From Pyrofollis japonicus (GTDB lineage Archaea > Thermoproteota > Thermoprotei_A > Sulfolobales > Pyrodictiaceae), in the NCBI RefSeq assembly GCF_033097485.1, contig NZ_AP028634.1, forward strand, positions 797,126 through 861,125: a DNA stretch of 64,000 bases. The letters run 5' to 3'. Positions 17,261-55,728 of the stretch are shown piece after piece. The notes below the pieces were generated by a model that had not been told where the DNA came from, searched no databases, and saw nothing but the letters and a program-made list of their open reading frames with translations. The position numbers and the translations under genes are program-made. The first letter of the stretch is position 1. Each line of letters starts with the position of its first letter.

Positions 17261-19237
17261 CTATCCCTCCTGGGATGAAATGACCGTAGCAGTACCATAG
17301 CCTACCAACACTATCTTGTCAGGAGATAGGACTCGGAGAATCTCCGGCCTATTAGTCGAGACTATCAAGGTTATGCCTGTCTTCTTTGCAAGAGAGCCTA
17401 TCTTGCGCGCAACTCTCTGAGCCGTAAGCCTGTCAAGATGGGCCGTGAACTCGTCTATTATGAGGAGGTTGGGTTTCTCCGCTAAGAGGCTTGCCAGTCT
17501 TGCCCTCTCTTTTTGCCCAGTTGATAACTCGTCGAAACGCGCTCTGTAGAATATAGCGTCGCTAAGGCCTACGGCTGAGAGAACTTCCACCGCCGCGGCT
17601 GGGTCACCAAGCTTAGCGGTAATGTGCTCGAGCAGCGTCTCTGAGCCGAAACGTGGCTCGAGTTCTCCGGGCAATAGTGCTGCTAGACGAACATTACCCG
17701 GTACCCTTACTTCTCCGCTGCTTGGCCAGTACTTCTCGTCTTCGAGCCGAAGGGCAGCCCCTATTATCATTCTGAGGAACGTTGTCTTTCCTGCACCGCT
17801 CGCACCCACAACTGCTACTATTTCCCCAGGCTCTATCCTAATATTCACGTCCTTCAGCACATAGCGCTCTACTATGCGGCGCTCGGCCCCAAATGCTCTT
17901 AGTACCTCTTGTAGCTCTGGAGGCATCCGGGAGACGTCAAGCTCGCTTCTATAGATCTTAGTGACCTTGACAAGTTCTATGGCTCCGCCGAGCTTCTCGT
18001 CAATACGGTACCTCGGCCTAAAGAGCCTGCCTCCATGTTGCCGCGCGTAGGGATCCTCGCGCAAGAAGCGCTCAATTATCTTCTTGGCCTCCTCCGTCAA
18101 GGGATACATTAGGACTGGTCTCCCGCTGGCAGTGTCCCACATATAGTAGAACCCGGCTTTCTCGAAGAACGGGTTGTACCGAGCCATTTGAGCTATGGTC
18201 TCTACAACGTGTTTCCTGCGCTTCATTTCGGGTATCCTGCGCTCAGCAATCCATTCGACGGCCATCTTTACGGCCAACACGCCTAGGCCGTCGCCGCGGT
18301 AGTCCGGATGAACAACCACCCTAGCTATCCTAGCCGCTGCCGTATTTGCTCTTCGAAGAGCCTCCTCGGCTATCTCCTCACCAACCACGGCCCTTGCTAT
18401 CCTCTTGGAGCCGTAGAGGTCTGCTAGCTCCTTGAACCTCTTCCTTATCTCGGCTCTCCTCGATATTGCTAAGGGCCAGAAAGTGGGGTGAAACCAGTCC
18501 TTGGGGAACACTTTCTCCCTTATCATCCTCTCTACGCGTATCTCGCCGTCAACGACTATTCTGCGATGCATCAGCGGTATGGGTGTATCGACTCTCACAT
18601 AGGCGACTATCCTCGGCTCATATGGCTCTCGCGTAGCCAGCTCTAGGACCAGGAAGCGGCTGGAGGGCAAGCTTCCACGAATCTCCTGGAGCTTCATGGG
18701 AACGCCATCTTTTGGACAAATGGGCTGAACATTCGACTCCATGTATTGGCCGCAGATAGGGCATCTCCAGATTGCAACAATCTCTTCCTTGCTAGCATAG
18801 TGGTACTGCTCTAGACCAACAATCTCCTTATAGTCCTCCTCCGTGACCGCCTCTCTCGCCACAATATGGTACTCATAGACCTTCTCGCCGACAACGCTTT
18901 CTCTTGAGAGCCTCGCCTCCTTTCTCCAAGGAGGCCATACTTTTACCTCATCGATGCGGCCCTCCTCGCTCCAAAGCCGCCACAGCTCATAGGTATCCCT
19001 TGGAGCAACGTAGACCCCGTCAACCCTCTCAGGCTCTTCATGAAAGACTATCTTAAGAGTCTCTCCAGGCCGTATCCAGCGCGCAATAGCTCCAGGCATG
19101 AGGAGAAGGACACGGCGCCCCTCAACCTCTACCAGGAGGCCTCCTTGCCACCTGGCACCCGTTTTAGGGATTTTAGCAGCTACAAGCTTAGCATATATGA
19201 ATTTAAAAAGAGGTATAGGTCTAGCAAACCCGTCCAA
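17261..19237 (-). CDS. zinc-ribbon, GNAT acetyltransferase and ABC ATPase fusion (COG2401-like)
   Basis: 658 residues with three modules. A rubredoxin-like knuckle CPICGQYMESNVQPICPKDG lies at residues 159-178. A GNAT domain has VVVHPDYRGDGLG around residue 310. A complete soluble ABC ATPase follows, with Walker A GASGAGKTT at 478-486, signature LSTGQKERARLASL, and Walker B LLIIDEFTAHLD. There are no membrane segments, so it is not a transporter. It matches the family described only as 'ABC ATPase fused to acetyltransferase'. The start is TTG 19237 after AGGGGATC. It heads an operon with the deoxyribosyltransferase-like gene. The substrate may be RNA, protein or nucleotide, which is unknown. 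Confidence 0.78.
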   Translation of the reverse strand: MDGFARPIPLFKFIYAKLVAAKIPKTGARWQGGLLVEVEGRRVLLLMPGAIARWIRPGETLKIVFHEEPERVDGVYVAPRDTYELWRLWSEEGRIDEVKVWPPWRKEARLSRESVVGEKVYEYHIVAREAVTEEDYKEIVGLEQYHYASKEEIVAIWRCPICGQYMESNVQPICPKDGVPMKLQEIRGSLPSSRFLVLELATREPYEPRIVAYVRVDTPIPLMHRRIVVDGEIRVERMIREKVFPKDWFHPTFWPLAISRRAEIRKRFKELADLYGSKRIARAVVGEEIAEEALRRANTAAARIARVVVHPDYRGDGLGVLAVKMAVEWIAERRIPEMKRRKHVVETIAQMARYNPFFEKAGFYYMWDTASGRPVLMYPLTEEAKKIIERFLREDPYARQHGGRLFRPRYRIDEKLGGAIELVKVTKIYRSELDVSRMPPELQEVLRAFGAERRIVERYVLKDVNIRIEPGEIVAVVGASGAGKTTFLRMIIGAALRLEDEKYWPSSGEVRVPGNVRLAALLPGELEPRFGSETLLEHITAKLGDPAAAVEVLSAVGLSDAIFYRARFDELSTGQKERARLASLLAEKPNLLIIDEFTAHLDRLTAQRVARKIGSLAKKTGITLIVSTNRPEILRVLSPDKIVLVGYGTATVISSQEG

Positions 19238-19384
19238 GTCTGTGATCCCCTAAAGACTGCTCCTAGGAAGGGGGTCTAAGTATAGAGCGTACTTCTCTAT
19301 CGATCAACATAATACTAAAAATTAGTATACTTTTATTTTTAATTTTATTTTTTATAAATAAATTCTAACACAATAGGCTGCAGA

Positions 19385-19395
19385 CATATTTATAC
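19385..19395 (+). promoter_or_regulatory. TATA box of the ATPase/TOPRIM-like cassette
   Basis: The motif ATATTTATACT is a strong archaeal TATA box inside an AT-rich leader. Its centre, near 19390, predicts transcription from about 19416. That is 5 bases before the TTG at 19421 and 20 before the ATG at 19436. Confidence 0.55.
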
Positions 19396-19420
19396 TCTTT
19401 CCGCCCAGTAGGATAATCTC

Positions 19421-21061
19421 TTGGGTAAGGACTACATGTCAAGCAAAGGGTTTCAATGCTGCAAGCTTCTAGAACTAGAAGTATCGGGATTCAAGTCCTT
19501 ACAACATATGAAACTTAAAACGCCTAGCAAGCTCACAATACTCGTAGGACCTAATGGTTCAGGCAAAACAGCCATTATAGAATCGCTCTTACTCTTGCGA
19601 GACATTGTTGACTATATACGAGGACGAATTATTAACCCTTTTTTGAGGTGGTGGGGCTATTATCATATAGTATGGAAACACGACGAAACAAAACCTATAA
19701 GATTGTCAATTACGCTTGACTGTAATGCATGCAACAAGGAGGTTTTAAAATCATACAAAGATAGTCTAAAACAAATAAGAGTAAGACATATTAATATCAT
19801 ACGTAACTATAGAATTAAATATGACGTTCATGTAACTGGGACGGGAGGTAACTTTCAAGTATTAATGGATGAAATCTGTATCGAAAACATTGCTTGCCTA
19901 ACGGCAAAACAAGGGAAACTAATACTTAACATAGCTAAACCAATTAAAACATTCGATGAGATTATTGAGCCTATTCTATCCTCGATGCCTATAGTTATTT
20001 CGATATCTATAAAAAAGGATATCCCAACATCGATCAAAGGCATTGTATGGAATTGTTATATGAAAATATTTGATGAGTTGATAAGAAGAAAAGATACATT
20101 AAAAAGAATAATAAATGAATTATTAAAAGACTACATGGAATCTAAGTTTAAAGCGAAGAGTAACATAGAAAGTATTTTGTCAATCTATACACGAAATGAA
20201 ACTGTTGCAAGATTTAATAAATTCTTTTATGATATAAAGACTGAAGCCGAGAAAACAACGAGGGAAAAAATCAGAAAAATTGTACACGATTTACTTCCTT
20301 ACTGCCATAAGGAGACTTTATTTAAAGATAAGACGTACTACGATATAATCGAAGAAATTATAACTGATTTAACTATACATAGTATCGTTTTCAGTATAAC
20401 TAACTATATGCTAGAGCTACTAGATTTAGCCATTTATATGGTTGGTTTATTTATTGATAATATCGTTATCCTCCGTCTACTTGATTATAGCTCGCTCCGT
20501 TCGCCTCAAATACTAGAGCCTCCAAGCAGACTTCGAGAAGATGGTACTAATCTTCTTTCTATTTTATTTAACCTTGGTAAAGGTAGATTACCGGAGGATA
20601 TAGCAGTTGTCTTAGCAGATGTTCTACACGGAACTGCCGTGTCTGGGTTCTTTGAACCCACTTCCGACGGACGGATAACTTTTCGCCTAATAGTAGATAA
20701 TATCGATATTTCTCAACCTGCAATACCAGAAGGTGCTTGGAAAACAATGGCTATAATGGCTGCTATATTAAGCGGGGCAAGTGTTATAGCTATAGATGAG
20801 TTTGAGAACAGCTTACATGCATCTGCACAAGAACTTCTACTTGAAGAACTCCGAAATAACGTACCCAATACAATTATAGCTACTCATTCACCGATAGTAG
20901 TTGACGCCGCAAAGAGCCTTGACGAAATAGTTATTGTTGAACTGCAAGGCAATGCTACAATTGCTAAAAGAATTGAAAAATCAGATAAACTTATTGAAAA
21001 ACTGAAAAAACTAGGCATCACACCAAGCGAGGCACTTCTTTATAGTCTACTAGAAACATAA
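19421..21061 (+). CDS. AAA/ABC-like ATPase of the OLD/AAA_15-AAA_21 type (candidate defence ATPase)
   Basis: 546-residue SMC/Rad50-like ATPase. The Walker A GPNGSGKT is at residues 43-50, following the LEVSGFKSL opening typical of overcoming-lysogeny-defect ATPases. Walker B IAIDEFENSLH is near D459/E460, and the H-loop ATHSPIVVDAA follows. The 300-residue insert between the motifs is rich in Lys/Ile and probably helical. It lacks the C-terminal TOPRIM that OLD nucleases have. A separate TOPRIM-like gene follows 28 bases downstream. Codon use is strikingly AT-rich against both flanks, which suggests recent transfer. The start could be TTG 19421 or ATG 19436. Confidence 0.8.
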   Translation: MGKDYMSSKGFQCCKLLELEVSGFKSLQHMKLKTPSKLTILVGPNGSGKTAIIESLLLLRDIVDYIRGRIINPFLRWWGYYHIVWKHDETKPIRLSITLDCNACNKEVLKSYKDSLKQIRVRHINIIRNYRIKYDVHVTGTGGNFQVLMDEICIENIACLTAKQGKLILNIAKPIKTFDEIIEPILSSMPIVISISIKKDIPTSIKGIVWNCYMKIFDELIRRKDTLKRIINELLKDYMESKFKAKSNIESILSIYTRNETVARFNKFFYDIKTEAEKTTREKIRKIVHDLLPYCHKETLFKDKTYYDIIEEIITDLTIHSIVFSITNYMLELLDLAIYMVGLFIDNIVILRLLDYSSLRSPQILEPPSRLREDGTNLLSILFNLGKGRLPEDIAVVLADVLHGTAVSGFFEPTSDGRITFRLIVDNIDISQPAIPEGAWKTMAIMAAILSGASVIAIDEFENSLHASAQELLLEELRNNVPNTIIATHSPIVVDAAKSLDEIVIVELQGNATIAKRIEKSDKLIEKLKKLGITPSEALLYSLLET

Positions 21062-21089
21062 GGTCACATAGACTTATGGCGATCCTACA

Positions 21090-21602
21090 TTGAACTGCCC
21101 AAAGGTAATTATAGTAGTTGAAGATAGGTATGCAAAAGAAGCTATACGAAAATTGCTAATAAAAAGGCAAATAAGTTGCTTTGATGTACAATACTTACCT
21201 ATCTGTAGCACAAAGTTCAGCAGAATAATTTCAGCACATCAAGACTATGGAAGACACATAATTATCGTCGCAGATGCCGAGCTCGAAAACCCAACGGAGA
21301 AAGAGACGCAAATTCGTGATAAACATGGACTTCATTCAAACAACGTTGATATAATAATTGTTGATCCTTGCATGGAGGCTTTAGCATGCATTGCCTTAGG
21401 CCTAAATGGGTGCAGAAATAAGCCTTGCGATGCTGGCCCCCTATTTTCAGTAAAGGAATATTACAAAAACATTCATAGAAAAGATTATAAGAAACGTTTT
21501 CTCGAGAAATTATTACTTGAAGCCGACGATAAAAATAACCTCGAAAAAGTATATGAATTTAAAAAATTAATTAATAAAATTAACAAAAATTATGAAAATT
21601 GA
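21090..21602 (+). CDS. TOPRIM-like/RloB-like small protein (candidate effector nuclease)
   Basis: 170 residues. The pattern is IIVVED (E11), then IIIVADAELE (D62, E64), then IIVDPCMEALACIALGL (D92, E96). It recalls TOPRIM domains (Glu, then DxD/E). The DPC-x-E segment is like the NPCFE-WLL signature of RloB/AbiL-type proteins. No N-terminal or C-terminal extra domain is visible, and the tail is basic and lysine-rich. It starts with TTG 21090, has no strong ribosome site, and shares the AT-rich composition of the ATPase gene before it. I infer an ATPase-plus-nuclease pair, but the fold is not confirmed. Confidence 0.55.
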   Translation: MNCPKVIIVVEDRYAKEAIRKLLIKRQISCFDVQYLPICSTKFSRIISAHQDYGRHIIIVADAELENPTEKETQIRDKHGLHSNNVDIIIVDPCMEALACIALGLNGCRNKPCDAGPLFSVKEYYKNIHRKDYKKRFLEKLLLEADDKNNLEKVYEFKKLINKINKNYEN

Positions 21603-21611
21603 GGGTAATGG

Positions 21612-22955
21612 CTACTTGACTTTATGTCTCCCTCTACTTAATATACCCCAAACAGCTCTACGTCTAGCAAATCGGATTGACACACCACGTGCATTGGCTA
21701 ATTGCTCAAGCAACGCCATGTACTGGTCTAGCTGCGACCCTGTGAAAGTAGCGTTTATGTGTGCAGCTATGAGTGGGATATTGTAGTAGCTTGGGCCTGC
21801 GTACTGGCTCTTTAACAACGCCACCACGTGCTCAGCATCGTTGCCAGGCTCCTCTAGGAGGCGCCCGGGAGAATAGTAGTCGCCGGGACTACCCGGCACC
21901 TCTACCAGCAACGGGTAGTCCTCGGGGCTCAGCTTCACATAGAGCATCTTTATGCGTGGAAGCCGGTCCAGCTCGCTCATGAGCCGGTAGCCTATTGAGC
22001 GCAGCTCTTCAACCTCAGGCTCGTCGCCTAGCAGCGTCTCTGCCTTAGCAATGGCGCGCTCAACAAGTGTCCTTATTCCCCCCTTTTGCAGTATCTTTGC
22101 AACCCTACGGCTGGGAGGCATGTTGAGTATCCACGTATAGCCTACCGCGTTGCCCCCGACAACGTCGGCGAGAAAGAGCGCGTCTCTATAGCTAGGGTCG
22201 AGTGCTGCATCAAATACTGGGCGATACTCGGCTGGCACTAGCCGACGCGCTGCTATGAGCTGGTCTCTCAGCGCTAAGGGGTACCATTCAAGGGCGCGAT
22301 TGACAAGGTCGCCGAGAACCGGGGTCTTCTCAGCGACAAAGTCGAGGAGTACTTTCTCCTTGTAGGCTCGAAACCCGTGATCCTTGGACACGTATGCGAC
22401 AACTATTCTACGCGATTGAGCTGTCTCGACGAACTTGACTATTTCTGCTAAGAGGTAGGCGCTAAAGAGGGCAGTATATACGCCAGCAATGCTCTCAACG
22501 TTTCCGGAGGCGAGCCTGGCCAGGGATGCAAATGCCGCACTCACTGTAACCCATAGGCTGCCGTCCATCAGGATCGTGTCCGAAGCACCGAGTCTAGCGG
22601 CAAGGGTTGTCGCTACGCGATGCTCGAGCCAAGAGCGTAGAGCGTCTAGTACGCGGGTATCCCTTACTGGGAAGATGCGTAGTTCAAGACCCCTTTCGGG
22701 CTCGCCGCCTTCAACGTAACCATATGCGCGTGCAATGTAGACGCTCCAGCCAAAGGCTAGGGGCTGTATGCCTCCACCGCCATCTACTGCCGCCGTTACG
22801 GTACTGGGGCTGCGGGCTGGTAGACCATGTAGCCACCAGTAGTTGGGGGCGCGTATTAGTATCCTGGACTCTCGCCTCTCCTTTAGTATGTCAATTAGCT
22901 TCTCTGCCTCGCTTGTAAATATATCAATGAACCAATCGCCGACATGTTTCAGCAC
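21612..22955 (-). CDS. NurA-domain nuclease paralogue (not next to HerA)
   Basis: About 447 residues. It carries the NurA opening AAVDGGGGIQPLAFG with the metal-binding aspartate, a second acidic site in ILMDGSLWV, and the C-terminal PLIAAHINATF region. NurA proteins are manganese-dependent 5'-3' nucleases that normally work with HerA in DNA end resection. This copy lies 6 kb from the true nurA-herA pair and is only distantly like it. The frame is open to ATG 23063, but the first 36 codons give an unlikely Cys/Phe/Trp-rich peptide and overlap TATA-like sequence. I therefore prefer GTG 22955 (or TTG 22970). It converges on the ATPase/TOPRIM cassette, 9 bases apart. Confidence 0.7.
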   Translation of the reverse strand: MLKHVGDWFIDIFTSEAEKLIDILKERRESRILIRAPNYWWLHGLPARSPSTVTAAVDGGGGIQPLAFGWSVYIARAYGYVEGGEPERGLELRIFPVRDTRVLDALRSWLEHRVATTLAARLGASDTILMDGSLWVTVSAAFASLARLASGNVESIAGVYTALFSAYLLAEIVKFVETAQSRRIVVAYVSKDHGFRAYKEKVLLDFVAEKTPVLGDLVNRALEWYPLALRDQLIAARRLVPAEYRPVFDAALDPSYRDALFLADVVGGNAVGYTWILNMPPSRRVAKILQKGGIRTLVERAIAKAETLLGDEPEVEELRSIGYRLMSELDRLPRIKMLYVKLSPEDYPLLVEVPGSPGDYYSPGRLLEEPGNDAEHVVALLKSQYAGPSYYNIPLIAAHINATFTGSQLDQYMALLEQLANARGVSIRFARRRAVWGILSRGRHKVK

Positions 22956-23083
22956 AGCCCCTGCACCCAAAAAGAATCTTCCAAGGTAATACCTTATGGT
23001 AGAGACTCCTCTATAGAATATCCAGAATATGCAAAAGGGAGGTCGTGTCCGATAAAAACACATATCTTAGCTCCAACAAGCTA

Positions 23084-24304
23084 TTAACTTCTATGCAAAG
23101 TCTCAGGCACTGTTAATAAAAGCAATACACCCAAGATCTGCGTAGCTATTATGAATGTGAATACATGAACAGGCCCCAAAGCATCCCAGATAATACCTGC
23201 TATAATAGGCACTATAAGAGAATTCAGTCCCCTAAAAAAGCCTAAAACTCCATGTGTACTTCCAAGTAAGTAGGGTGGAACAAGTTCTGCTGTCATAGCT
23301 CCTCGAACTACTGCAAGAACCTCGGAAAATCCTTGCAAAATAGCTGATATTATAAGAAATTGTGCATTAGGTGCATAGACTAGCATGATAAGTGAGGCAC
23401 AATAGACTGCTACAAGGAAATAGATGACCCTTTTTCTGCCAATTCTATCAGCCCACCTTCCTATTGGTATGGAGAGCAGAAGTGGGGCTACTACTAAGCT
23501 AGTACCCATAATACCTAAAACATACTGATCCGCGCCTTTGACCTTGGCCGCAAATAATGGTACATAAATGCTTGATGCAACATAGTGAGGTATCTTTGAG
23601 AGAGAATCGAATATAATCCATCTCTTCATTGCTACTCCTTTTTCAAACACCATCTTGATAGACCTAACGAGGCCCATCCTTATCCGAAGAACTTTTCTTA
23701 TTCTAGGCTCATCAAACGTTTTTAACACCAGTATAAGATTTACTAAGAGAATGAGCGCTTGAAGATAATAAAGTGGACGAATTCCTCTTACATTCATTCC
23801 TCCAAGCAATGAGATGAGGTATGCAGCAACCAAAGGACCCACTAAGCGAGGCGTAGCAGTAAGTGTGTCACATATACCACGCCCTGTAGCCCTCTCCTCA
23901 TCTCTTAATGTGCTTCCACAGACAACTGGACAAGCTATTATTGCCATATTTAAGCCTAGATAAAACAAAAAGAAAGCCGGAATAATCATTTCCCAGCTAC
24001 TAGCCAAGGCGAAGAATAACGAGCCCCAGATCATTATAAAAGTAGCAATGCTAAATGTTGTCCTTAGACCATGCTTATCTACTAGCCAGCCAACTAAAGG
24101 TGCTATAAGAGTAGTTGTAAGACCTCTTAAACTGCCTATAAGCCCTATTTCCGAAGCCGTTGCACCTAGGAGAGAAATATAGACGGATTGGTACTGGGAC
24201 AACAGGGACTCTGCAAAATTCTGTAAAGCAGCCCTAATCATATTGACTTTAAAAACATGCTCCTGTCTCTTAATGAATCTCCATATATTTCTAGGACTCA
24301 GCAA
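23084..24304 (-). CDS. major facilitator superfamily transporter
   Basis: 406 residues with about twelve hydrophobic helices and the MFS loop motifs GWLVDKHGLR (after helix 2) and GRWADRIGRKR (after helix 8). Secondary carriers of this type move sugars, drugs or amino acids. The substrate is not readable from sequence. The start is TTG 24304, with ATG 24241 an alternative. Base use is moderately AT-rich. It lies in an accessory stretch between a NurA paralogue and an adenosylhomocysteinase-like gene, so it may be part of acquired DNA. Confidence 0.88.
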   Translation of the reverse strand: MLSPRNIWRFIKRQEHVFKVNMIRAALQNFAESLLSQYQSVYISLLGATASEIGLIGSLRGLTTTLIAPLVGWLVDKHGLRTTFSIATFIMIWGSLFFALASSWEMIIPAFFLFYLGLNMAIIACPVVCGSTLRDEERATGRGICDTLTATPRLVGPLVAAYLISLLGGMNVRGIRPLYYLQALILLVNLILVLKTFDEPRIRKVLRIRMGLVRSIKMVFEKGVAMKRWIIFDSLSKIPHYVASSIYVPLFAAKVKGADQYVLGIMGTSLVVAPLLLSIPIGRWADRIGRKRVIYFLVAVYCASLIMLVYAPNAQFLIISAILQGFSEVLAVVRGAMTAELVPPYLLGSTHGVLGFFRGLNSLIVPIIAGIIWDALGPVHVFTFIIATQILGVLLLLTVPETLHRS

Positions 24305-24446
24305 GATATATCCCCATTACTTATCGTTCCGAATCCTCGTTTAGCAATGCCAAACATAATAACAATTCTTAAGTTCACAAAAAAGTAAGGAGGTAGGTGT
24401 CACAAATTATAACAACGAAAACTATAGTGGTGCATAATTTATTTTC

Positions 24447-25532
24447 TTATTTATTTTTCTCTACATAGTAGCGCAACCATGTCTTAGCTATATTATTCAT
24501 ACTATCATATGGAAGCTCGTGAAGGCCAGGAGACCAGTCATTCTCGAGCAGTATTCTGACGGCCTCATAATGCATTGTAAAGAGCAGGTCTTCTAATGCA
24601 CCTAGATACATGTGCTTGAAGTTAATCGGGTATCCATCATTTAGCAGATATATCTTTTTATTATTATTTAAGCGATATAGTGTAACTAAAGAATTGATAT
24701 TTGTTTTCTCTTTGGTGATACTATTTAGAGAATCTATATCAAACTCAACCTGTCGAGATGTCGCACTTGCAAGGATAACTCCGTCCTTTAATTTTAGAAA
24801 TTCGGTACCCCTTATACTGTAGTTTCCAGTGGCGCCAATAATTATATCAGCGTTTTTAAGTAGCTCCTCTTTATCTACATAGTATCCGTCAAGAAACGCT
24901 TCAATTCTTCGTATAGGCTCAATGTCATAAGTTAGAACTTTACAAGGGTAGCCTTGAAGAACTCGCACACAGGCTTTACCTAGGTTACCATACCCAAGAA
25001 TGCCAACGATTTTCCCGGCCAATGTATCATAGAAGACCTCGCCAAGGACTTGGTTCAACACTTGTAAAACATCAAGTGCTATTGCAGGATAATGAGCTAA
25101 ATTTAGCATTGCTTTCGCAGTAGAAATTACAGGCAACATTAGCTGTTCTCGACCGTAACGCCAATGACCTTGAGCCGTACATTCAACAACACCTTTAAGG
25201 TTAGAGGAGGCAAACTTATTAATGCATTCTGCACAGTATCCTCCTATTTCAAGGAGTACGACCTTATCGTATCTTTTAACTGCGTCCTCTAAAGCTTTAA
25301 GAGCTACTCTAGGAATGTCATCAAGGGAACTAACCAAGGTGACATTATATTCATTACTAAGCTCATCAATAACACTTTTTTGAGCCGAATAAGGTATTGG
25401 AATAATACGCTCAATTACTAAGTTATTTTCAGATAATACTTTTAGAAAATATTTAGAGCGTTTTGAAAAATGATATATAAGTATGATTGCACTTTTCTCT
25501 TTAATTGGATTTCTTTTTGCATAATTTATCAA
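24447..25532 (-). CDS. S-adenosylhomocysteinase-like NAD-binding protein, divergent
   Basis: 361 residues. The centre has the Rossmann loop ILGYGNLGKACVRVL (residues 178-192), which is the adenosylhomocysteinase NAD site (GYGDVGKGCA in true enzymes). It is followed by ADIIIGATGNYSI, where true enzymes have an A-T-G-N loop, and NDGYPINF, like the family's NDGxPVN. The catalytic block that normally precedes the NAD domain (with its Lys/Asp pair) is not visible. The N-terminal third is unlike the true enzyme. It is probably a family member with another substrate or none. Strongly AT-rich, TTG start, no operon partner. Confidence 0.65.
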   Translation of the reverse strand: MINYAKRNPIKEKSAIILIYHFSKRSKYFLKVLSENNLVIERIIPIPYSAQKSVIDELSNEYNVTLVSSLDDIPRVALKALEDAVKRYDKVVLLEIGGYCAECINKFASSNLKGVVECTAQGHWRYGREQLMLPVISTAKAMLNLAHYPAIALDVLQVLNQVLGEVFYDTLAGKIVGILGYGNLGKACVRVLQGYPCKVLTYDIEPIRRIEAFLDGYYVDKEELLKNADIIIGATGNYSIRGTEFLKLKDGVILASATSRQVEFDIDSLNSITKEKTNINSLVTLYRLNNNKKIYLLNDGYPINFKHMYLGALEDLLFTMHYEAVRILLENDWSPGLHELPYDSMNNIAKTWLRYYVEKNK

Positions 25533-25675
25533 GCAAGGAAATCGGTATGCAAAAACTGTGCAAGTTTAACCAAGATATCACACCACAGACAAGATAGGTT
25601 ATAGTAGCTGTATATATACATTATGTCAAGAATACTAATCATTATCTGAGAAAGACTTAAAAAGGGGGTACAGTA

Positions 25676-26722
25676 TTAAATAACTATCATCCTGCCAATT
25701 TTTATTGCGAGAAGACTATAGATGATTATAGATGCTGCTGTCGCCGCTCCATAAGATAGTCCGAAGACTCCGTAACCAGTAGCACCGCCCTTGACCATTG
25801 CTCTTGCGACTGTCTCGTAGCCGGCGATCGCTACGCCGCTAAGAAGCGACGCTAGCACTATGCCTACAACACTGTGCCCCATAGCTAGTGCTGCGAGGCC
25901 TGCTAGTATTCCAAAGAGGGGCGGTAATAGCGCCGCAGCCCGGGGTGCACGATCATACAGTGCACCAAGCGGTATTGCTGCGGCTGCGTCGCTGAGCATT
26001 GCTGCTGCGTAAAGCATTGCGAGGACTGCCTTGCTTGGCGATAGTATTATCTTAGCCACTTCTTGGATCGCTATAGGGTTCGCGGTCATGGTTCCCGCCA
26101 AAAATACGTAAAGGGCTGGCCACAATCCACCCTTAAATGACTCGTAGATGCTATGGCGCTTGGGAGTCATAGCTGTTTTAGGATAGAGATCCATAGCATA
26201 GAGGAGCGCGACTACGCTAAAGGCACCGGGGACTGAGAGAACCCATAGCCCATAGTAGCCCATAAAAGCAAGCGCCGCCATCATGGGGCCGAGTACAGCA
26301 CCCACCTGGTCTAGGAGCTCATGTATGCCAAAGACGAGGCCACGTCGCTTACCAGCTATGCTTGAAAGTAGGTAGTCTCGTGCAGGAGATCTCAGCGCTT
26401 TGCCGAACCTCTCAATACTGTAGCCTATGGCTAGCCAGGGCCACCCCTGCACAGCGATAAGTATGCCTACAGGTACTAGCGCGTACCCTGTAATTGTTAG
26501 TAGCCAATATCTTGCAGTAATGTCGGCTATGACTCCTGTAAGCGGGCGCAGACCCCAGGCTATGACCTCTCCTATCCCGACCACTGCTCCAAGCTCGTAG
26601 CTCCTCTCGATAAGAGGTGCTAGGATGCTGCGAAACCCCTCATAGCTCATATCGGCGAGAAGGCTCACAACGCCGAAGATCACAACTATTCTGAGAACCC
26701 TCTTATCGAGAGCCAAGCCCAT
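25676..26722 (-). CDS. MFS-type transporter, short
   Basis: 348 residues with about ten to eleven hydrophobic helices. The loop RFGKALRSPARDYLLSS resembles the conserved R-x-x-GKA-x-R-x-PARD motif of a group of prokaryotic MFS carriers, and GALYDRAPRAAALLP is the helix 8-9 loop. The protein is shorter than most MFS members, and the last helices are compact. The start is ATG 26722. It diverges from the oligopeptide ATPase gene with 116 bases between them. The substrate is unknown. Confidence 0.82.
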   Translation of the reverse strand: MGLALDKRVLRIVVIFGVVSLLADMSYEGFRSILAPLIERSYELGAVVGIGEVIAWGLRPLTGVIADITARYWLLTITGYALVPVGILIAVQGWPWLAIGYSIERFGKALRSPARDYLLSSIAGKRRGLVFGIHELLDQVGAVLGPMMAALAFMGYYGLWVLSVPGAFSVVALLYAMDLYPKTAMTPKRHSIYESFKGGLWPALYVFLAGTMTANPIAIQEVAKIILSPSKAVLAMLYAAAMLSDAAAAIPLGALYDRAPRAAALLPPLFGILAGLAALAMGHSVVGIVLASLLSGVAIAGYETVARAMVKGGATGYGVFGLSYGAATAASIIIYSLLAIKIGRMIVI

Positions 26723-28064: not shown

Positions 28065-28074
28065 ACTATATAAG
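28065..28074 (+). promoter_or_regulatory. TATA box before the GC-rich ncRNA candidate
   Basis: ACTATATAAG is a near-ideal archaeal TATA box and has no protein gene within reach downstream. It predicts transcription from about 28095, just before the GC-rich structured stretch. Confidence 0.55.
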
Positions 28075-28094: not shown

Positions 28095-28195
28095 ATCGAA
28101 AAGTGTGAAGGGCTGGCGGCCTCCAGCCGGTCCCGGGGTCACAGCGCCGCCCGGGATTCTTCGGCGGTCTCGCCCCGGGTGTCGGCCACTCTTTA
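28095..28195 (+). ncRNA. putative structured non-coding RNA, GC-rich
   Basis: A 90-base GC-rich island stands out in an AT-rich intergenic stretch, which in hyperthermophiles usually marks stable RNA. It can form a 6-bp hairpin (GGCTGG 28111-28116 with CCAGCC 28123-28128). It can also form a 7-bp stem (CCCGGGG 28132-28138 with CCCCGGG 28173-28179) enclosing an inner hairpin (CGCCG 28145 with CGGCG 28162), and a short closing pair AGTG/CACT (28102, 28187). A TATA box lies 26 bases before the predicted 5' end, and CTTTATATTT follows as a T-rich terminator. It does not match tRNA, SRP, RNase P or an obvious H/ACA layout. Confidence 0.55.
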
Positions 28196-28215
28196 TATTT
28201 AGGGGCTAGCTTAAG

Positions 28216-28803
28216 TTAAGTGTCTCGCTTCCTGCGCGGAAGAGCCTTGTAGCCAACAGCTAGTCGTTGTGCAACAGTTATCCATGCTAGTACTACAAGG
28301 AGCCAGTAAAGGATAGCTGCAACATGTCCGCCTATGGCTGCTTGTACGAGTAGCACTATTATTTGTGCGACCAGCCGGTCTGCTCGCTCTAGGAGCCCTA
28401 CTCCTTCCATGCTCTGGCCTACGAGGGCCTCGTATCTAGCTCTTGCATAGCTGGTTATGAGGGCTGCAGAGAGGAATAGGATTACTGCTTCAGCGGGATA
28501 TCCTAGCATGTAGAAGCCTAGAGCGTAAAAGGTATCCGCTATGCGGTCAAGCATGCTATCTAGGAAGGCGCCCTTGGGGCCTGCTTCTCCTCGGAGACGG
28601 GCCACTGCACCGTCAAGTGCGTCTAGTATTCCGCTTAGCGCGAGGAACACCGCAGCAACAAGGGGGCCTAGGCTGACAGACAAGAGGAATAAAATGGCAC
28701 CGATTAGCCCTATTACAGTGTAGAAGTCTGCCGGAAGCACTGCTAGCTTGCCTGCTAATACTGTTAGGATTCCAGATACTTTGCTCCTCAGCCTTGTAAG
28801 CAT
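28216..28803 (-). CDS. CDP-alcohol phosphatidyltransferase (archaetidylinositol-phosphate synthase type)
   Basis: Integral membrane enzyme that swaps CMP from CDP-archaeol for a polar alcohol, building archaeal phospholipid headgroups. The motif is complete: D-x2-DG-x2-AR-x8-G-x3-D-x3-D, seen as LDALDGAVARLRGE and GAFLDSMLDRIAD. About five to six hydrophobic helices fill its 195 residues, the usual size. The acceptor, probably inositol-1-phosphate, is inferred from archaeal relatives. It starts at ATG 28803, 12 bases after the NurA gene, and may be in its operon. Confidence 0.85.
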   Translation of the reverse strand: MLTRLRSKVSGILTVLAGKLAVLPADFYTVIGLIGAILFLLSVSLGPLVAAVFLALSGILDALDGAVARLRGEAGPKGAFLDSMLDRIADTFYALGFYMLGYPAEAVILFLSAALITSYARARYEALVGQSMEGVGLLERADRLVAQIIVLLVQAAIGGHVAAILYWLLVVLAWITVAQRLAVGYKALPRRKRDT

Positions 28804-55641: not shown

Positions 55642-55728
55642 GCCGGGGTGCCCGAGCGGTCTAAGGGGCCGGCCTTGAGAGCCGGTGGCCGCACGGCCGC
55701 GCGGGTTCAAATCCCGCCCCCGGCGCCA
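55642..55728 (+). tRNA. tRNA-Ser(UGA), CCA encoded
   Basis: Folds cleanly. The acceptor stem is GCCGGGG (55642-55648) with CCCCGGC (55718-55724), followed by discriminator G and genomic CCA (55726-55728). The anticodon stem is CCGGC/GCCGG with loop CTTGAGA and anticodon TGA at 55676-55678. A long, paired variable arm (GGCCGCACGGCC region) identifies a class II tRNA, and the discriminator G plus TGA anticodon point to serine. The T-arm is GCGGG TTCAAAT CCCGC. It reads UCA and, by wobble, other UCN codons. Confidence 0.95.

Follow-up and report, generated by a model that had tools for sequence, protein, structure and literature searches.

The GC-rich island with nested stems at ~28110–28190 of the window (the whole 64,000-nucleotide stretch of DNA analysed, positions 797126–861125 of the 2.0-Mb chromosome of Pyrofollis japonicus, G000) is, by comparative sequence analysis, a conserved structured-RNA gene of hot-vent archaea, encoded on the minus strand. 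The best explanation of this gene, to which we give a probability of about 0.82, is an H/ACA-like pseudouridine guide running from ~28195 to ~28105 on the minus strand. In particular, a minus-strand transcript of ~85–90 nt would fold into a single hairpin with an L7Ae-type kink-turn and would serve the Cbf5-Nop10-Gar1-L7Ae enzyme as its H/ACA-like guide, while two single-stranded arms flanking the upper stem would base-pair with 23S rRNA, placing one uridine in position to be converted to pseudouridine. Cbf5 is encoded in the genome (PF08068 match in a 377-aa open frame, G000:C1:866038-866172).

A structured RNA family in hot-vent archaea

The island lies in an intergenic gap, as an earlier note on this DNA had described. 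That note proposed an unannotated small RNA of this lineage matching no recognisable RNA family, and suggested as checks an Rfam scan, a search for homologues in close relatives, and an inspection of whether the CCCGGGG/CCCCGGG stem keeps pairing in them. A scan of the window and 20 homologous loci, on both strands, against Rfam 15 revealed nothing above the gathering score for this RNA; the sole Rfam match in the window is a tRNA-Ser (anticodon TGA) at 55642–55728. RNase P RNA and SRP RNA were considered as identities and rejected, both being found elsewhere in the genome, and a resemblance to the peptidyl-transferase segment of 23S rRNA was dropped, the local alignment not being significant. 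The RNA is structured, unannotated, and outside Rfam, as the note had it, but it also occurs beyond the lineage, and its minus strand shows features typical of H/ACA-like pseudouridine guides; it is absent from Rfam but most likely of a known kind.

DNA search identified homologues with 80–85% identity in four genomes, a weaker homologue in a fifth, and a paralogue of the window copy in the same genome. We refer to the window copy as T1 and to the paralogue, at G000:C1:422503-422581, as T2. A covariance model matched 18 of the 20 Pyrodictiaceae genomes, with two clear copies in most of the well-assembled ones, and wider covariance models revealed members in families f2, f3, f4, f6, and f9 of the order; weak matches (for example L041, L051, L053, and L054) were left out. 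Among named genomes, a permissive pattern search gave mainly bacterial noise and three true archaeal matches.

Covariation in an alignment of 17 sequences, for which apical loops were cut to four bases so that the stems line up and the stems were left unaltered, confirms that the pairing is kept in relatives. Specifically, double compensatory changes are seen in 9 of the 12 pairs of the stems, a count equalled in 0 of 500 shuffles; 93% of cells pair; the covariation score is 0.404, versus 0.096 in shuffles; and no structure slid along the same alignment approaches the true pairing. The upper stem P2, formed by CCCGGGG (28173–28179, minus strand) and CCCCGGG (28132–28138, minus strand), is genuine, and so is the inner, apical stem P3, formed by CCGCC (28163–28167, minus strand) and GGCGG (28147–28151, minus strand). 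The fold energy is unremarkable alone (z-scores of −0.98 for the plus strand and −1.76 for the minus strand), and the reality of the structured RNA is established by its family of homologues and by covariation, not by energy.

Neighbouring genes, named from their translations, vary by lineage: T1 adjoins a CDP-alcohol phosphatidyltransferase-like gene (G000, G004), a PRPP synthetase gene (G005, G011, G014), or a glutamine synthetase gene (G017); the neighbours of T2 are valS and an HD-domain gene; and f9 members have still other neighbours. Since neighbours differ between lineages, the RNA is a separate gene. In most Pyrodictiaceae, T2 is flanked by a valS-like gene and an HD-domain hydrolase gene that run in the same direction, and a motif like GTCAGCCGAAATCCGATACAT recurs ~60 bp upstream of T2 loci (L044 and others).

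Strand, kink-turn, and H/ACA-like architecture

The T1 gene (28105–28195, minus strand, ends approximate by inference) is conserved in relatives in its core and arms. Its assignment to the minus strand is well supported because of a TATA cluster, a kink-turn, and an NCA box, and the plus-strand orientation of the earlier note is wrong. In 21 of 35 loci, a TATA-like octamer is found within a cluster at −25 to −34, upstream of the minus-strand start, whereas upstream of the plus-strand start such octamers cluster at no distance. The candidate TATA box of the window copy, TTAACTTAAG (28210–28219, minus strand), is located ~24 nt upstream of the gene, is weak, and lies partly within the end of the CDP-alcohol phosphatidyltransferase-like gene upstream. 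The TATA box that the note had assigned to the RNA, CTATATAAG (28066–28074, plus strand), is present yet is not conserved upstream of plus-strand homologues and is probably not the promoter of T1, and the note's plus-strand "T-rich end" is the A/T-rich region directly upstream of the minus-strand gene. The stems themselves barely discriminate the strands, with 3 A-C versus 1 G-U wobbles.

The complement of the invariant plus-strand TCAY is RUGA, and that of YTC is GAR; together they make up both strands of a kink-turn, which is the site of L7Ae. In the window copy, the bulged strand is UGUGA (plus-strand TCACA; 28139–28143, minus strand) and the non-bulged strand is GA (28170–28171, minus strand), preceded by one extra nucleotide, 28172. 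RUGA is found in nearly all members, and the TCA on the plus strand, representing the bulged side, is unchanged in all 17 alignment rows. In a table of 56 members, the elements follow the order 5′ arm, P2, GA, P3 hairpin, NRUGA, P2′, 3′ arm; in 43 of them GA is no more than 3 nt from P2, the kink-turn being judged at the sequence level, and the other 13 have no clean GA beside P2 in this automatic table. A C/D box sRNA was considered and rejected: the kink-turn is inside the hairpin, and terminal C (RUGAUGA) and D (CUGA) boxes were not seen.

The GA stem comprises ~10 layers in T1 and T2 (7 pairs, 1 mismatch layer, and 2 G-A) and in G175 (6 pairs, a U-U, 1 further layer, and 2 G-A), a count that presumes one bulged nucleotide in most copies. 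Among 27 T2 members, C and A are each present in 24 at positions 17 and 18 after the stem, with variable neighbours, defining an NCA box separated from the upper stem by 15 nt. At the matching place T1 has a possible degenerate H/ACA box, which is CCA in the window copy (28114–28116, minus strand; 14 nt after 28131) and is indistinct in most T1 copies of other genera. A lower stem of 7–9 bp is absent: T2 forms no more than 4 pairs, including a bulge, and T1 has 3 + 4 interrupted pairs. The published model of archaeal H/ACA and H/ACA-like RNAs comprises a GA stem of 10 layers, a major determinant, and an ANA box 14–15 nt away, with NCA accepted, and H/ACA-like RNAs of Pyrobaculum have truncated lower stems (PMC4652768). 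T1 and T2 appear to have these published H/ACA-like features, with the lower stem truncated, and the assignment of the RNA to this kind is well supported.

Guide arms and predicted 23S rRNA targets

The arms of the minus strand, which flank P2, are antisense to 23S rRNA. The top-scoring pocket-type sites are LSU U1514 for T1 (CGG-UC-GTCGGCCGAGG, 3 + 8 to 11 pairs) and LSU U2647 for T2 (GAG-UC-GTCGCGGG, 3 + 8 pairs), with identical offsets. The 5′ arm of the window copy, GAGTGGCCGAC (28181–28191, minus strand), makes 8 pairs, one of them G-U, with LSU 1516–1523, beside U1514-C, and in Pyrodictium-like and other genera the corresponding arm is CCTCGGCCGAC and makes 11 Watson-Crick pairs. The 3′ arm, CCGGCTGGAGGCCGCCAG (28113–28130, minus strand), pairs through CCG with the CGG preceding U1514, and the rest is antisense, with G-U pairs, to LSU 2867–2877; for T1 the match spans LSU 2865–2877, and because it begins at a distance of 4 nt from the stem it is not in register with the pocket, a spacing that varies. 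The T2 3′ arm, CTCCCGGCCTTCA, is antisense to LSU 2088–2100, up to U2101. U1514 is the predicted modification site of T1, while the 5′ arm of T2 would frame U2647 and its 3′ arm would reach U2101, in helix 69.

By sequence alignment, U2647 corresponds to E. coli 2457 (AACAGGC-U) and U2101 to E. coli 1911, which is the U that directly follows the 5′ strand of helix 69; both E. coli positions are pseudouridines. At both U1514 and U2647 the 3′ arm contributes just 3 pairs, and at U2101 the T2 5′ arm contributes none. A strong duplex is reported to be required 5′ of the target, with a single pair sufficing for the other duplex (PMC4652768), a rule that U2101 suits better than U2647 as the site of T2. 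With LSU sequences of relatives taken from the DNA search, G021 has GGG-U matched by guide CCC, versus GAG-U matched by guide CTC in Pyrodictiaceae, and G022 (f4) breaks this GAG-U/GGG-U rule, having GCG-U mismatched by guide CTC.

Chance sets bounds on these assignments. A U accompanied by three in-register pairs with the other arm is expected at 1–3% of rRNA sites, and single antisense matches in relatives are moderately improbable (P of 0.003–0.05). The arm-to-rRNA z-score is ~2–4 for the clearest arms and <1 for each of the two arms in the window copy, which pair less well than the arms of relatives. The exact targets predicted for T1 and T2 are moderately supported, and that of the T1 window copy is the least certain, weakest-supported element. 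A pocket scan of the plus strand against rRNA was not significant, and rRNA mimicry, suggested by plus-strand sense matches to LSU, was dropped once the complement was read.

The two arms are inherited independently. The T2 3′ arm is joined to quite different 5′ arms in f9 (G145, G169, G119) and f6 (G193), and the 5′ arm is joined to different 3′ arms as CCGCGAC in f2, f4, and f6 and, shortened to GCGAC, in f3; the genomes with such combinations are G021 (with GCGAC), G022, G032, G049, G066, G118, and G168. Since the arms are separately inherited, each one appears to be conserved in its own right. T1 and T2 may be double-specificity guides, a reading we hold tentatively and at somewhat less than even odds, in which each Pyrodictiaceae hairpin would serve two distant 23S sites and the same arms would be carried on separate RNAs elsewhere in the order. 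The sites, no less tentatively, would be the equivalents of E. coli 1911 and 2457 for T2 and LSU 1514 and ~2878 for T1. An apparent second split, of T1 in the Pyrolobus clade (L040 with only the 3′ arm, L218 with only the 5′ arm), was given no weight, since the UGA of the kink-turn is missing from L040. On contig 9 of G118 (f6), the 23S gene matches in at least four pieces (L232, L238, L241, L242) with several hundred additional bases between them, which are probably archaeal rRNA introns.

Alternative readings and known guide systems

The same arms could belong to an L7Ae-bound chaperone of rRNA folding, transcribed from the minus strand, that bridges two distant 23S segments and guides no pseudouridylation. 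The arms are antisense to separate sites (LSU 1516–1526 and 2865–2877 for T1; LSU 2649–2656 and 2088–2100 for T2), and the displaced, variably spaced match of the T1 3′ arm suits such a role; but a chaperone gives no reason for a conserved NCA box, a GA stem of 10 layers, or the U-N pocket geometry, and we consider it unlikely. Still less probable is a plus-strand structured sRNA of undefined function driven by the TATA box at 28066–28074, as the note proposed. The plus strand folds about as well as the minus strand and that TATA box is a good match, but it is not conserved, whereas minus-strand boxes cluster at the right distance; moreover, the plus-strand internal loop fits no recognised motif while its complement reads as a kink-turn plus an NCA box at the H/ACA distance, and it is on the minus strand that the arms are antisense to rRNA. 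That the near-palindromic core, CCCGGGG...CCCCGGG, is a DNA-level inverted repeat or protein-binding site giving rise to no RNA is very improbable, given compensatory changes in two nested stems, asymmetric conserved loop letters, and a promoter at a fixed distance.

As H/ACA-like guides, T1 and T2 resemble the H/ACA-like sRNAs of Pyrobaculum (Pae sR203–sR210; Bernick 2012, in PMC4652768) in build: both have a single hairpin, a kink-turn, a ~10-layer GA stem, a truncated lower stem, a degenerate box (ANA/NCA), and free arms that pair, or in T1 and T2 are predicted to pair, with rRNA. They differ in order, guides, and targets, and in that both arms of T1 and T2 carry independently conserved antisense elements. 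With canonical archaeal H/ACA sRNAs (the Pyrococcus Pa/Pf series) they share the kink-turn, the GA stem length, a box 14–15 nt from the upper stem, and, as predicted, the U-N pocket, but they have no 7–9 bp lower stem and their box is mostly NCA, not ACA. Two H/ACA box sRNAs have been reported in Sulfolobus acidocaldarius (PMC5539422), a pair that is similar, by description, in coming from related archaea and in its low copy number of two. H/ACA-like guides without a lower stem were detected specifically in the genus Pyrobaculum (PMC4652768); if our reading is true, the type extends across another archaeal order. It would also assign RNA guides to helix 69 and the segment adjoining the peptidyl transferase centre, where bacteria use stand-alone modifying enzymes. 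The RNA family is new, and a covariance model and predicted targets are now available for it.

Five further loci (L050, L216, L217, L219, and L222) encode hairpins of like build with unrelated arms, possibly more H/ACA-like guides with other targets. Within the window, positions 19001–26000 contain two AT-richer stretches (34–42% GC versus ~50%), possibly acquired, one of which spans transporter-like and dehydrogenase-like genes.
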